Shown: piece after piece, positions 18,511 to 24,190 of the stretch
Layout of the letters: the number at the start of each line of letters is the position of its first letter
Numbering within the stretch: position 1 is the stretch's first letter
Assembly (NCBI GenBank): GCA_002869895.2
Contig: NEWP02000027.1
Span: forward strand, 76,184-114,489
From: Nitrospira sp. CG24E
GTDB lineage: Bacteria; Nitrospirota; Nitrospiria; Nitrospirales; Nitrospiraceae
Direction of reading: 5' to 3'
DNA: 38,306 bases
Position numbers and translations under genes: made by a program
The notes under the pieces: model-generated
The model's input: the letters and a program-made list of their open reading frames with translations, nothing else
Databases searched by the model: none
Told to the model about the DNA's origin: nothing

Positions 18511-19959
18511 TTACGCCTGAGCCGTTCGGGTTTTGAGTGCGTCCAGCCGTTTCTTTTCCAGACTCACATGCAGAGATTTTTCCTGGGTGACCGTGACCGC
18601 CCTTGGTGCCTGGCCCTTGGCCTTTTTGACCCATTTCCGTCTCGTGTAGATGACATCGCCTTTACCGCTCTTCTTCAAATCGCTATAGAGCAGCGCCAGC
18701 GTGGCGGCATCTCGTATTGTTTCGAGCGGCGGATCGCTTCCTTTCTCCAGGCGCACCACGACGTGTGAGCCGGGCGTACCACGGGCATGCAGCCAGAGGT
18801 CGTCGCTCTTGGCGAGTCCGAACGTCAGCTCGTCGTTCTCGCGCGCGTTTCTTCCGACATAAATTGCCAGACCGTCCGATGAGGTGAAGCGGCGGAACGG
18901 ACCTTGATGCTGCCCCGGACGTTCCTTCTCTCTACCTATCCGTGAAAGGGCTCTTGTCCGTGCGATTGGATGGGGTTTGTCGGGCATTTGCCAGGTTCCC
19001 TGTTCGATGGCGGTTAATTCTCCCTGCAGGGCCTCCAGTTCCTTCTGCCCTTCTTCGATGCGTGGGCGCAACTCTCTCTCCGCGGCCAGGTGCTTCCGAT
19101 GTTTTCGGAAGTAGTCGTCCATATTGCCCTGGGGAGTTTTGGCTTGGTCGAGTGGGATGGTTAGGCCGGGAAGCTCTTCATCGAAGTAGTCCACCAGCGT
19201 AACGTCGGTCTGGCCTTTGCGGATGGTCCCTAGATTTGCCTTGATGAGTTCCCCGTATCGCGCGTAGTTCTTGTACTTCTCCGCCTTTGCGAGGTCTTCG
19301 TGCCAGGCAGCTATGCGGCGGCGGAGCTTCTTGATGGATTTCCTCAATACCCCTGCTCGGGAATTCCGAAGGGTCTCGACGCTGGAAGCGGCTTCTGTCC
19401 TTCGGTAGTGGCGCTCGATGGCAGCCGATAGAGGGAATGGGGATTCTGGATTATCCAGATTGAATCGAACGTGGTCGGTGAGATCTTCCTCTCGTTGTGG
19501 GCGAGTAGGAGGAACGTAGAGTTGCCCCAGACGATCTTTCATCCGGTTCAGGTCTCGTCGGATAAGCCCCGCCCCATCGAGCAGAAGGAGATTGGCGGTC
19601 TTCCCTGTCAGTTCTATAACCAACCGGCAGGGGCCTTCCTTGCCGCTCAATGTGAGATGAACCATCCGATCTCCTGGAATCTGTTCAATCCGGTCGATGT
19701 GCGCCCCTTGCAGATGGGCGCGGAGAAATTGACAGAAAGGCGGGGGTGTCGGTGGATTCTGCAAGGCTGAAGTGGTGAAGTGCAGTCTGGTGGATTCATG
19801 GTGGCATGAGATAAGCAGCCGGTGGGTCCGTCCCGGCGCGCGAATCTCCAGCACAATCGTCCGATCCGTAGGCTGGTAAATCTTTTGAATCCAACCTCCG
19901 GCTAAGGCTGGAGCGATTTCACTTGTCACCTTCATAATTTCTGACGCAGTGAGTGCCAC
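18511..19959 (-). CDS. NFACT family protein (RqcH-like, ribosome quality control)
   Basis: 482 residues starting at GTG 19959 with AGGCAA upstream. The NFACT-N domain (MALTASEIMKVTSEIAPALA, then WIQKIYQPTDRTIVLEIR) is followed by a helical coiled-coil middle (about 180-330) and an NFACT-R/DUF814 domain with SSDGLAIYVGRNARENDELT, DDLWLHARGTPGSHVV and KGDVIYTRRKWVKKAKG. The family binds stalled 50S-peptidyl-tRNA complexes, and bacterial RqcH adds alanine tails with tRNA-Ala. It is somewhat shorter than Bacillus RqcH. Older names such as fibronectin-binding protein are misleading here. Confidence 0.9.
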   Translation of the reverse strand: MALTASEIMKVTSEIAPALAGGWIQKIYQPTDRTIVLEIRAPGRTHRLLISCHHESTRLHFTTSALQNPPTPPPFCQFLRAHLQGAHIDRIEQIPGDRMVHLTLSGKEGPCRLVIELTGKTANLLLLDGAGLIRRDLNRMKDRLGQLYVPPTRPQREEDLTDHVRFNLDNPESPFPLSAAIERHYRRTEAASSVETLRNSRAGVLRKSIKKLRRRIAAWHEDLAKAEKYKNYARYGELIKANLGTIRKGQTDVTLVDYFDEELPGLTIPLDQAKTPQGNMDDYFRKHRKHLAAERELRPRIEEGQKELEALQGELTAIEQGTWQMPDKPHPIARTRALSRIGREKERPGQHQGPFRRFTSSDGLAIYVGRNARENDELTFGLAKSDDLWLHARGTPGSHVVVRLEKGSDPPLETIRDAATLALLYSDLKKSGKGDVIYTRRKWVKKAKGQAPRAVTVTQEKSLHVSLEKKRLDALKTRTAQA

Positions 19960-20284: not shown

Positions 20285-20500
20285 ATGCAGTGCACGAAGT
20301 GCAATGGTTTCATGGTTGCCGACAACCTGATCGACATGATGGAGAGCAGTATTCCGATGTGGATGAAGGGGTGGCGATGTGTATCCTGCGGGAACATTGT
20401 CGATCCGCTCATCCAGAAGCATCGGATGATCCAACAGGCGGGAGCCTCACGGCTACTTGAGACAAAAACCGCTGTGCCGCGACTCCGCCGCGTCGCGTAA
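20285..20500 (+). CDS. Small zinc-ribbon protein (71 aa)
   Basis: A strong ribosome binding site (AGGAGGAGG) precedes the ATG. Two CxxC knuckles, CTKC at residues 3-6 and CVSCG near residue 38, are spaced to hold one zinc ion. Between them lies a Met-rich amphipathic segment (MMESSIPMWMKGW). The tail is basic. Function unknown. Proteins of this shape act as small nucleic-acid or protein adaptors. Confidence 0.75.
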   Translation: MQCTKCNGFMVADNLIDMMESSIPMWMKGWRCVSCGNIVDPLIQKHRMIQQAGASRLLETKTAVPRLRRVA

Positions 20501-21100: not shown

Positions 21101-21907
21101 ATGAAATTCGATTCGAGGACAGAAAGCCTAGATCTGCCGGCAGCCGGAGCCGGCAATCGATGTAATTGGACGCGTGTCTTGAGTCTGAGCCTGGTTGTGG
21201 CAGGATCTTTGTTGCTGCAAGGTTGTCTCGCCGGGGCCTGGGTAGCACTGGTAGCGGCAGATACCATGAGAGATAGCAATGGAACCGTCGGGTCGTTCGA
21301 AGAATTTCGGGTGGGACAAGTGGCAGTGAATGCAGAGACGAGCGGCCATGTGAGCTTCGGGCAGTTTGAGAAATCTTGGGTGGCGAAGCGGGACCAATCG
21401 GGTGATGCGGTTTTCAATTCCAAGGTGACGAGTGTTGCGGTTCTCCCGGTTGAGGGCGACCCTGAAATGGGTGTGCGGCTTGCGACTTTGTTGCAACAGG
21501 AAACTGCATTGCGCGTCGAATCGCCTCCGACCGCCTCGGCAGGAGGTACGGTTGCCGATCTCCGTTCGGGAAACGCTGATGATGCAGACCGCAGTATCCT
21601 GGCCAAAGAAGTCACGCGGGACTTGGATGTCGATACCATTCTCGTCAGCCGAATAGCCGAATCACCCTCTCATCCGAGCGACTGGGGGCTGAAAGCAGAG
21701 GGTTCACGACGCCTCTATCTGTATCTGCTCAATCGCGAGGGGGATCTGCTCTGGAAGGATGAACTGCCTTTCGTGCTGGCAAAAGGCCCTACGCCCCCGC
21801 AGAGCAGGTCTGTACAGACCGAGTTTACCCATCATGTGATGCAGCATGTTAAAGTGTTGCACCTTGATGAGCTCGGCTATCTGCCGAACAAGGAGAAGCG
21901 GAGATAG
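21101..21907 (+). CDS. Lipoprotein, function unknown
   Basis: The ATG at 21101 is chosen over the frame start at 21083 because AAAGG lies eight bases upstream. The 268-residue product has an unusually long N-region, then a hydrophobic segment ending in the lipobox SLLLQGC (about residue 41). The mature part includes SKVTSVAVLPVEGDPEMGVR and VDTILVSRIAES, reminiscent of outer-membrane lipoproteins that build a multimeric envelope base (LpoB/CsgG-like GNA1162 fold), but this is only a resemblance. It ends near the start of the HExxH enzyme gene, about 270 bases downstream on the same strand. Confidence 0.65.
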   Translation: MKFDSRTESLDLPAAGAGNRCNWTRVLSLSLVVAGSLLLQGCLAGAWVALVAADTMRDSNGTVGSFEEFRVGQVAVNAETSGHVSFGQFEKSWVAKRDQSGDAVFNSKVTSVAVLPVEGDPEMGVRLATLLQQETALRVESPPTASAGGTVADLRSGNADDADRSILAKEVTRDLDVDTILVSRIAESPSHPSDWGLKAEGSRRLYLYLLNREGDLLWKDELPFVLAKGPTPPQSRSVQTEFTHHVMQHVKVLHLDELGYLPNKEKRR

Positions 21908-22003
21908 ACCAATCGTCCATCTGCAACATTGACGCCTATCGAGTGACCTTTGTTAAGAGTCCGCCACACAATGCAACAGGTCAAAGAACCGTATCTTCAT
22001 TCG

Positions 22004-22031
22004 CTTTCAGCCTTCAGCCTCGAACCTCCAG
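22004..22031. repeat. Short array of 7-bp units (CCTTCAG-like), single orientation
   Basis: Four adjacent heptamers (CTTTCAG, CCTTCAG, CCTCGAA, CCTCCAG) lie downstream of the lipoprotein stop. No inverted partner arm was found nearby. It resembles the other periodic arrays of this window in unit length and position. Confidence 0.45.
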
Positions 22032-22173
22032 CATTCTTTGCCCCGTGACGTCACTCCCAGCCTGTTTCAGGATCTCTTGCCTGCAGAGTTTCTCCGCACC
22101 CTGACAGGCTATATTGCAGCGCGCAGGCTTCTCCGGTAGAGTCCGCTGTCTGTATCTCGGAGCCTGTGTCCCC

Positions 22174-23739
22174 ATGCCGTTACTCGATCTGCCCTTGCTC
22201 ACTCGCCTTCAGGAAGAGTTTCGCCTGTCGATGAAGCGTCTGTTGGACGACCTCTGTCTGGATTTGGAAAGCCAATATGCAGACGTTGCGAAATCCTTGT
22301 CGTTGCCCGTCGGATATTTCCGGTTTCTGAGGCAAGCGCTCGAACGGGATGCCTATAACCACTGGAAAGTCGTCGGCTGGATCGAAGCGCTGAACGATCT
22401 TGTCTACTTCATCGATCTGCTGCAACAGACTCGGGGAGAGCAGAATCTTCGTGAGTTTGCGGCGCAGTTGTTTGTCGAGTGCCAGGAGAAGTTCTTCGAA
22501 AACAGTTATCTGGACGATCTATTCCCGCGCGGAGTCCCGCAGACCTCTGGACTCGAACGGCGACTGCATGGACTCTGCAGAAGACTGACTCAGGAGCTGC
22601 TTCAGGAATTGCTTTGTCTTGTGCCGGGACTTCCGATGCAGTGGTGCGCCTCCCGCAAGATTTCGTCCTGGACCGTACAGGCACATCTCGGCCACAACGT
22701 CGAGCGGGGAGAAATATCGGGAACGATGACTATGGGGATGGCGGGCGATGTCTACGAGGCTCCTCCATCGATAAAGAGAGCCATCAGGCAATCGTCCGGC
22801 CAGGCGACCATTCTCATCCAGCCTCACGAACTGTCTCTGAGGATTGGACGATTGGTGACGCCTCTCTGTACGATGCGAAGCAATCGGTTGCAATGGAGTT
22901 GGAAACATCTCCCGGCAGTTGTGGCAGCGGAGACTTCATCTGGAGCCGTCACAGTCGGGCCTTCGCTCGTCTATGGGAAGGATCGCCAACCTCGCAGGGT
23001 GGTCCCTACCTCAGCTGATCAGGTCTCGCGAATCGGGCGGACATGGACAATCATACGAGAGGTCTGGCCGGAAGGACAGGAGATCCTCGCGCTCTTGACC
23101 GCTCGGATTATCCCGCTCAAGGCCAAGGGCGTCGTCAGTTTCAGCTATCGCCACCGTCCGGGACTATCCTTTATTAATTGCTTCGACCGGGACGATCTCG
23201 ATCTGATCGATGATTTGATTCACGAGAATAGCCATCACCATCTCAATCTTCTGTTGCGGAAACAGATTCTCTTTCACGGAGATCGCAACCAGCAAATTTT
23301 CTATTCTCCCTGGCGCAGAAGTCTGCGTCCGCTCAGAGGTATTTTGCACGCGGCATTTACGTTCACGGTGGGGGCGATGCTTTTTGAGCGGTTATCGACC
23401 TGGGCGTCTGGACCCGGCGGATCCGCCCGGTGGAAGCGAGCGGGGCTGACCTCCCGCGATCTTCAGCGAGCCCGCTTTCGCTGTCTTGAGGAGGTGGAAT
23501 CCGTCCGCTATTCGATCCAGGATTTGGAGTATGCCGGCTGGCATCTCAAGTGGCTCACCGGCTCAGGCCAACGGCTGTTCAAACAGTTGGTTGAATCGGT
23601 CGAGCAAGTCGAGCGCAACATCGCGCCTCACAGAAAGGCCGTCCTTGCCTCCGCATTCGGGCCGGCCCTCCGCCGCCACATGAAGGAACTCCAGCAAGCT
23701 CGCCAGGCCTATGGACCGGTGCGCTTGGGGACCGTATGA
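22174..23739 (+). CDS. aKG-HExxH-type peptide beta-hydroxylase-like protein
   Basis: 521 residues from ATG 22174. The frame is open from TTG 22114, but the ATG gives a natural helical N-terminus. The diagnostic block is residues 345-400: DLIHENSHHHLNLLLR carries HExxH (H350, H354), then FYSPWRRSLRP (SPW at 378-380), then LRGILHAAFTF with H392. This HExxH ... SPWR..RP..G.LH layout is that of the family NCBI names aKG-HExxH-type peptide beta-hydroxylase (formerly HEXXH motif putative peptide modification proteins), which act on ribosomal peptides. H350, H354 and H392 are the probable iron ligands (inference). The N-terminal half is a helical domain of unknown role. No precursor peptide, leader peptidase or exporter is adjacent, so the substrate is unknown. 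Confidence 0.7.
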   Translation: MPLLDLPLLTRLQEEFRLSMKRLLDDLCLDLESQYADVAKSLSLPVGYFRFLRQALERDAYNHWKVVGWIEALNDLVYFIDLLQQTRGEQNLREFAAQLFVECQEKFFENSYLDDLFPRGVPQTSGLERRLHGLCRRLTQELLQELLCLVPGLPMQWCASRKISSWTVQAHLGHNVERGEISGTMTMGMAGDVYEAPPSIKRAIRQSSGQATILIQPHELSLRIGRLVTPLCTMRSNRLQWSWKHLPAVVAAETSSGAVTVGPSLVYGKDRQPRRVVPTSADQVSRIGRTWTIIREVWPEGQEILALLTARIIPLKAKGVVSFSYRHRPGLSFINCFDRDDLDLIDDLIHENSHHHLNLLLRKQILFHGDRNQQIFYSPWRRSLRPLRGILHAAFTFTVGAMLFERLSTWASGPGGSARWKRAGLTSRDLQRARFRCLEEVESVRYSIQDLEYAGWHLKWLTGSGQRLFKQLVESVEQVERNIAPHRKAVLASAFGPALRRHMKELQQARQAYGPVRLGTV

Positions 23740-23809: not shown

Positions 23810-24190
23810 ATGGCGCCACCTCATTATGCTCGGACCTATCACCGGTTCCCGCTCCGCTATCCCGTCATTTTCGGAGGGGCTCCGTTTGTCGGCGAAGGTA
23901 TCCTGAACAACCTGTCGTTGATGGGCTGCTCCATCCTGTGCGATAGAGAAGTCCTCTGCGGCAGCGCGGTGCGGGTAAGTGTCCTGCTCCCAAATCAGAC
24001 GCAGGCACTGTCGATCGAACTCGGCACGGTTAAATGGGTTCAGGGCGAAGAATTCGGAGTGGAGTTTTTTCGCCTGCCGCTTGAGGCGAGGAAACGTCTT
24101 AATACGACTCTCCGCGTTGAACTCATCAACCTGCTGAAGGCCCGTGCGGTCACAAACGAAGTGCCGGAATTGCTCAATCGGGTGAGCTAG
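23810..24190 (+). CDS. PilZ domain protein
   Basis: ATG 23810 has GGAGG six bases upstream, giving 126 residues. The frame is open further upstream, but that part lies outside the domain. The PilZ motifs are RxxxR in YHRFPLRYPV and NxSxxG in LNNLSLMGCSI, followed by GEEFGVEFFRLP. It is expected to bind cyclic di-GMP. It is clearly a paralogue of the PilZ protein at 17382 in layout (short single domain, GVEF strand). It starts 70 bases after the HExxH enzyme gene on the same strand. Confidence 0.87.
   Translation: MAPPHYARTYHRFPLRYPVIFGGAPFVGEGILNNLSLMGCSILCDREVLCGSAVRVSVLLPNQTQALSIELGTVKWVQGEEFGVEFFRLPLEARKRLNTTLRVELINLLKARAVTNEVPELLNRVS

Follow-up and report, generated by a model that had tools for sequence, protein, structure and literature searches.

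A gene of Nitrospira sp. CG24E, lying in the window of 38,306 nt (the whole stretch of DNA that was analysed), encodes an alphaKG-HExxH-type oxygenase that is conserved lineage-wide in the Nitrospiraceae and has no recurrent RiPP neighbourhood (Table 1). The protein is probably an Fe(II)/2-oxoglutarate oxygenase that hydroxylates one of the side chains of its substrate, which is likely to be a cellular protein or peptide conserved in this family of bacteria. The alphaKG-HExxH oxygenases are a young family; those whose role is described in PMC12636437, PMC13060819 and PMC12707348 all come from clusters for natural-product peptides, and in open papers we found neither a member described as a lineage-wide core gene outside RiPP clusters nor any literature on Nitrospira HExxH oxygenases. 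If confirmed, the case would represent a variant in biological role that is new for the alphaKG-HExxH family.

Table 1. Features of the oxygenase gene, its neighbours in the window, and second copies of its 3' end in related genomes.
Feature	Position	Strand	Remarks
NFACT (RqcH-like) gene	18511..19959	-	Conserved divergent neighbour; PF05833
Small CxxC...CxxC protein gene	20288..20500	+	Recurrent upstream neighbour
Putative lipoprotein gene	21101..21907	+	Lipobox-like LLLQGC from sequence; neighbour in this clade only
alphaKG-HExxH-type oxygenase gene	22174..23739	+	521 aa; TIGR04267 above cut-off; fold match to 8s5f and 22ob
N-terminal part, residues 1-277	22174..23004	+	Helices to about 160, strands 166-277; 25/277 columns invariant
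Catalytic core, residues 311-410	23104..23403	+	53/100 columns invariant (42 orthologues)
HENSH (H350, E351, H354)	23221..23235	+	Invariant; H350 and H354 putative iron ligands
SPWRRSLRP with R381 and R385	23305..23331	+	Invariant; putative 2-oxoglutarate-binding arginines
H392, candidate third metal ligand	23347..23349	+	His in 41/42 orthologues
PilZ-domain gene	23810..24190	+	Incidental neighbour; PF07238
Second copy of oxygenase 3' end	L146:2341-2487		
Second copy of oxygenase 3' end	L148:2206-2367		
Second copy of oxygenase 3' end	L149:2350-2457		
Second copy of oxygenase 3' end	L147:931-1125		

Family, fold and predicted active site

Against the NCBIfam model TIGR04267 (aKG-HExxH-type peptide beta-hydroxylase, also IPR026337), the curated cut-off of which is 40 bits, the protein scores 70 bits (E 2.5e-19), and two of its orthologues reach 76 and 81.5 bits. 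A sequence search of the PDB retrieves the crystallised HExxH domain of ChlH/ChlB (8s5f) with an E value of 7.1e-9 and SjiH (22nu/22ob) with one of 0.0025; both are found again, with better scores than for the single sequence, by a profile of 42 orthologues whose identity to the window protein goes down to 51%. Score, fold, the HExxH motif and the (S/A)PWRxxLRP arginines all agree with membership in the alphaKG-HExxH family, and the resemblance noticed in the preliminary description, which was made from the sequence alone, goes beyond chance. The HENSH block lies in frame where that description placed it, and its numbering of H350, E351, H354 and H392 is right when counted from the ATG at 22174, a start common to the orthologues; the interval of 23100-23420 contains the block but corresponds to the catalytic core, not to the whole gene. 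Judged by its sequence, the protein as such is a member of a known family that NCBI's own model would name, since stand-alone members are already known. A Pfam scan gave no significant match. The PHROGs and PADLOC searches were blank and no plasmid relative was found, and the reading as a phage or defence gene was rejected.

An AlphaFold model built from the 42 orthologues has a mean pLDDT of 90.4 and a pTM of 0.87. Foldseek ranks 22ob and four chains of 8s5f first (E of about 3e-6 for 8s5f), with nothing else below E 0.001, and VIA-align superposes the model on 8s5f with Z of 22.3 and rmsd of 3.6 Å over 292 residues (model range 1-480) and on 22ob with Z of 20.0 and rmsd of 4.7 Å over 375 residues (model range 1-504), the next-best row, a helical bundle, standing at 9.8. 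The predicted fold is thus like that of the family, and neither of the two outcomes that were to count against the preliminary description, a missing HMM match and a dissimilar fold, occurred. The large helical N-terminal part of the preliminary description is borne out as far as about residue 160, but it is followed by a beta-rich segment (166-277) and does not form an extra domain: the alignments to 8s5f and 22ob begin at model residue 1, so that this segment, too, is included in the known fold.

H350, E351, H354, R381 and R385 are invariant across the 42 orthologues, and invariant columns, dense in the catalytic core, amount elsewhere to 19/165, 6/112, 3/33 and 15/111. From the set of H350, H354 and H392 that had been singled out earlier, the first two hold, while H392 is not strictly conserved, being replaced by Gln in one orthologue. 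Gln occupies this position also in SjiH, a protein with the same fold and a weak sequence match for which no describing paper was found, and in the RiPP-type paralogues L153 and L154 it is taken by Asp or Leu, with a His three residues on; a role of residue 392 as the third metal ligand is thus plausible, though unproven. The core SPWRxxLRPxxGxLHAxF is common to the oxygenase and ChlH, and the arginines are present in SjiH as well. Oxygenases of the alphaKG-HExxH type have positively charged residues for 2-oxoglutarate (PMC12614342), and R381 and R385 are the obvious candidates for its binding here. In an active enzyme H350 and H354 would bind iron, perhaps with H392 as the third ligand, 2-oxoglutarate would be held by R385 and/or R381, and hydroxylation would most likely take place at the beta-carbon of a peptide or protein side chain.

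The same motif can be read differently, namely as that of a zincin-like, peptide-hydrolysing metallopeptidase, in which case the family's oxygenase name would be misleading. Apart from HExxH itself, the description of the fold as reminiscent of zincin proteases and the hydrolysis of leaderless peptides by PflC with several metals (PMC12636437) agree with such a reading; it is nevertheless quite improbable, as no Pfam peptidase family matched the protein at E up to 10, the arginines conserved in the oxygenase family are invariant here and the fold matches are oxygenases.

Characterised relatives and the neighbourhood of the gene

The characterised members of the family use Fe(II), 2-oxoglutarate and O2 to produce beta-hydroxylated residues in RiPP precursors (PMC12636437). 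The named enzymes PflC/PosC, PesO and BipH/BpmH (PMC12636437, PMC13060819, PMC12707348, PMC12257519), compared here by description, are separate proteins like the Nitrospira oxygenase, but all of them come from RiPP clusters in which precursor peptides are encoded. PflC/PosC and PesO hydroxylate peptides, PflC/PosC in addition break the backbone by oxidation in front of an Ala (PMC12636437), hydroxylation of Pro is dealt with in PMC13060819 and BipH in PMC12707348. ChlH, the ChlB domain of Chlorogloeopsis (8s5f), shares with the oxygenase both the fold and the core LIHExxH...SPWRxxLRPxxGxLHAxF; according to PMC12636437, which cites Morishita et al. 2024 (doi 10.1038/s41557-024-01596-9) for it, the domain is part of a fusion with radical SAM that is encoded in a RiPP cluster, and it acts on Asp/His of a cyclophane peptide. 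Unlike ChlH, the Nitrospira oxygenase is encoded by a stand-alone core gene without a RiPP cluster.

This statement holds beyond the window. Eighty orthologous loci were surveyed with rough gene calls (longest ORFs, at least 40 aa), and no family of RiPP precursor-like proteins, of radical SAM/MNIO or other maturases, of proteases or of exporters recurs in them; the non-RiPP context asserted in the preliminary description extends to all 80 loci. A search of the genome for NHLP leader peptides gave no match, its control matching nowhere either. Other TIGR04267 proteins of Nitrospirota (L153, L154, L112 and L114) are sporadic and 295-459 aa long. The HExxH protein of L153 adjoins a radical SAM/SPASM maturase-like gene and that of L154 an HxsB-like radical SAM gene, while those of L112 and L114 are located beside ORFs reading like SPASM ends and 2OG-Fe oxygenases. 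Since these sporadic paralogues from the same phylum do sit beside radical-SAM genes, the contrast in context is real, and a RiPP context of the radical-SAM kind would have shown at the oxygenase loci. The segments L153:2886-5736 and L154:1170-5655 are possible peptide clusters in two Nitrospiraceae genomes, the latter also with a metallo-hydrolase-like ORF.

The genes that do accompany the oxygenase are of another kind. The NFACT gene is found at 60 of the 67 loci with enough upstream DNA, and a response regulator recurs beyond it; in 41/72 loci the oxygenase gene is immediately preceded by the CxxC gene, which is absent from the locus in a large clade. The CxxC protein, without a match in Pfam and NCBIfam, has about 10 diverged paralogues in its own genome. 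On the other side, a DUF2059 gene is located downstream in 25 loci, and a convergent transporter-like gene, tentatively of the APC amino-acid type by reading of its sequence, is present in 59. The lipoprotein and PilZ genes, named earlier as neighbours, are real in the window but not conserved (11/80 loci for the former; for the latter two, L041 and L035), and an operon uniting them with the oxygenase is rejected on these counts. The short ORFs at 21943-22104 (+) and 22014-22202 (-), covering the 21950-22140 interval that had been pointed to in the search for conserved short ORFs, recur in a single relative, 95% identical, and are rejected as precursors.

Two further observations concern these surroundings. 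In 32 loci a 2OG-Fe(II) oxygenase gene (PF13661/PF13640; e.g., L056:4870-5532), unrelated to the alphaKG-HExxH oxygenase nearby, lies 1.4-7 kb upstream. In the window, a gene for a regulator with HTH and PBP_like domains (PF12727; 26245-27450, +) adjoins one for an alginate-export-type outer membrane protein (PF13372; 27488-29035, +), a pair missing from this place in most orthologous loci.

With such recurrent neighbours, the substrate might be a product of one of them, i.e., the CxxC protein or, given that RqcH adds alanine tails, such tails produced by the RqcH-like NFACT protein. The frequency of the two genes at the locus and the oxidative cleavage before Ala by PosC (PMC12636437) would fit; yet the genome G189 has the oxygenase with no NFACT match, by which dependence on NFACT is rejected, in G002 the oxygenase is absent while NFACT and the genes for the CxxC protein and the lipoprotein are present, and the clade without the CxxC gene at the locus is large. 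The linkage of the oxygenase with NFACT and CxxC may reflect mere chromosomal order, because other genes are syntenic too, and the idea has very little probability.

Distribution, inheritance and the substrate

The genome of Nitrospira sp. CG24E has one copy of the oxygenase gene. Matches to the full-length profile come from 117 of the 120 Nitrospiraceae genomes sampled, mostly of Nitrospira, nearly always in a single copy and with a few of the matches being contig-edge fragments; among 275 other sampled Nitrospirota genomes the full-length form was not found, and four genomes outside Nitrospiraceae gave matches to the core alone, from reading frames 318-350 aa long. Even reduced genomes of 1.7-2.0 Mb (G001, G029, G189, G134) have retained the gene. 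The three family genomes without it are G002, G424 and G205. G002 is a clean loss, with NFACT and the CxxC and lipoprotein genes in place and ABC export genes where the oxygenase is expected, and the oxygenase is therefore not strictly essential. The G424 contig starts inside NFACT, on the oxygenase side, which leaves the absence there undecidable, and G205 is an odd genome that also lacks NFACT and NxrB-like matches. NxrB-like matches, none of which reached the model cut-off, were obtained in 14 of 16 tested genomes; by this measure G169 keeps the oxygenase without an NxrB-like match, which speaks, though weakly, against a dependence of the gene on nitrite oxidoreductase.

In the 61 loci with both genes, the protein distances of the oxygenase and NFACT are correlated with r of 0.91 and a slope of 0.99 (none of 999 permutations gave as high a value), and their mean divergence is equal, 0.40. 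Compared with L041, the 95% relative, the oxygenase has a dN/dS of 0.16. Together with the dense invariant columns of the catalytic core, this is how a core gene looks that is inherited vertically and whose active site is fixed; the pattern bears on inheritance, not on chemistry.

Such an inheritance also bears on the supposition that the protein is after all a RiPP tailoring enzyme, with its precursor, protease and exporter encoded elsewhere in the genome and a peptide conserved across Nitrospiraceae. The alphaKG-HExxH enzymes characterised in PMC12636437, PMC13060819 and PMC12707348 are RiPP enzymes, some RiPP clusters have no local protease (PMC12636437) and RiPP-type paralogues do occur in Nitrospiraceae; RiPP genes, however, are usually clustered and patchy in distribution, whereas the oxygenase gene is present as one copy, in conserved synteny and almost throughout the family, and the sole precursor-like ORF of at least 40 aa that recurs beside it is that of the CxxC protein with its paralogues. 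We therefore regard a distant RiPP system as unlikely.

The oxygenase would then most likely act on a conserved Nitrospiraceae protein or peptide rather than on a natural-product precursor. A cellular substrate is likely because the gene is single-copy, vertically inherited and present in nearly all Nitrospiraceae, and no RiPP cluster accompanies it; the modification of a native protein, which had been one of the early suggestions, is supported indirectly by this core-gene conservation. That the HExxH branch acts as a protein hydroxylase with a housekeeping role in the Nitrospira family, hydroxylating a core cellular protein or cleaving its backbone oxidatively throughout the lineage, has in our judgement an even chance of being correct. 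Nitrospiraceae are a family of nitrite oxidisers and comammox bacteria, and cultures of Nitrospira exist. A branch fixed in nearly all Nitrospiraceae would imply that proteins of these bacteria, which are central to the nitrogen cycle, bear a conserved and so far undescribed modification.

The 3' flank of the oxygenase gene

In related genomes the region on the 3' side of the oxygenase gene is a toxin-antitoxin hot spot. Downstream, within 3 kb, 29 of 64 related loci carry such a cassette; upstream, within the same distance, none of 69 does. The cassettes, seen for instance in L040, L032, L051, L062 and L068 and not in the window, consist of Fic/Doc with a MazE-like partner or of a ribbon-helix-helix protein with PIN. 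Some genomes carry the gene's final 36-65 codons a second time, at another place (Table 1), and these second copies of its 3' end suggest cassette recombination at that end. The copy in L146 follows a Fic/Doc module, that in L148 is a 110-aa ORF near ribbon-helix-helix and PIN genes, and that in L149 forms an in-frame fusion at the end of an M50/HlyD-like ORF.
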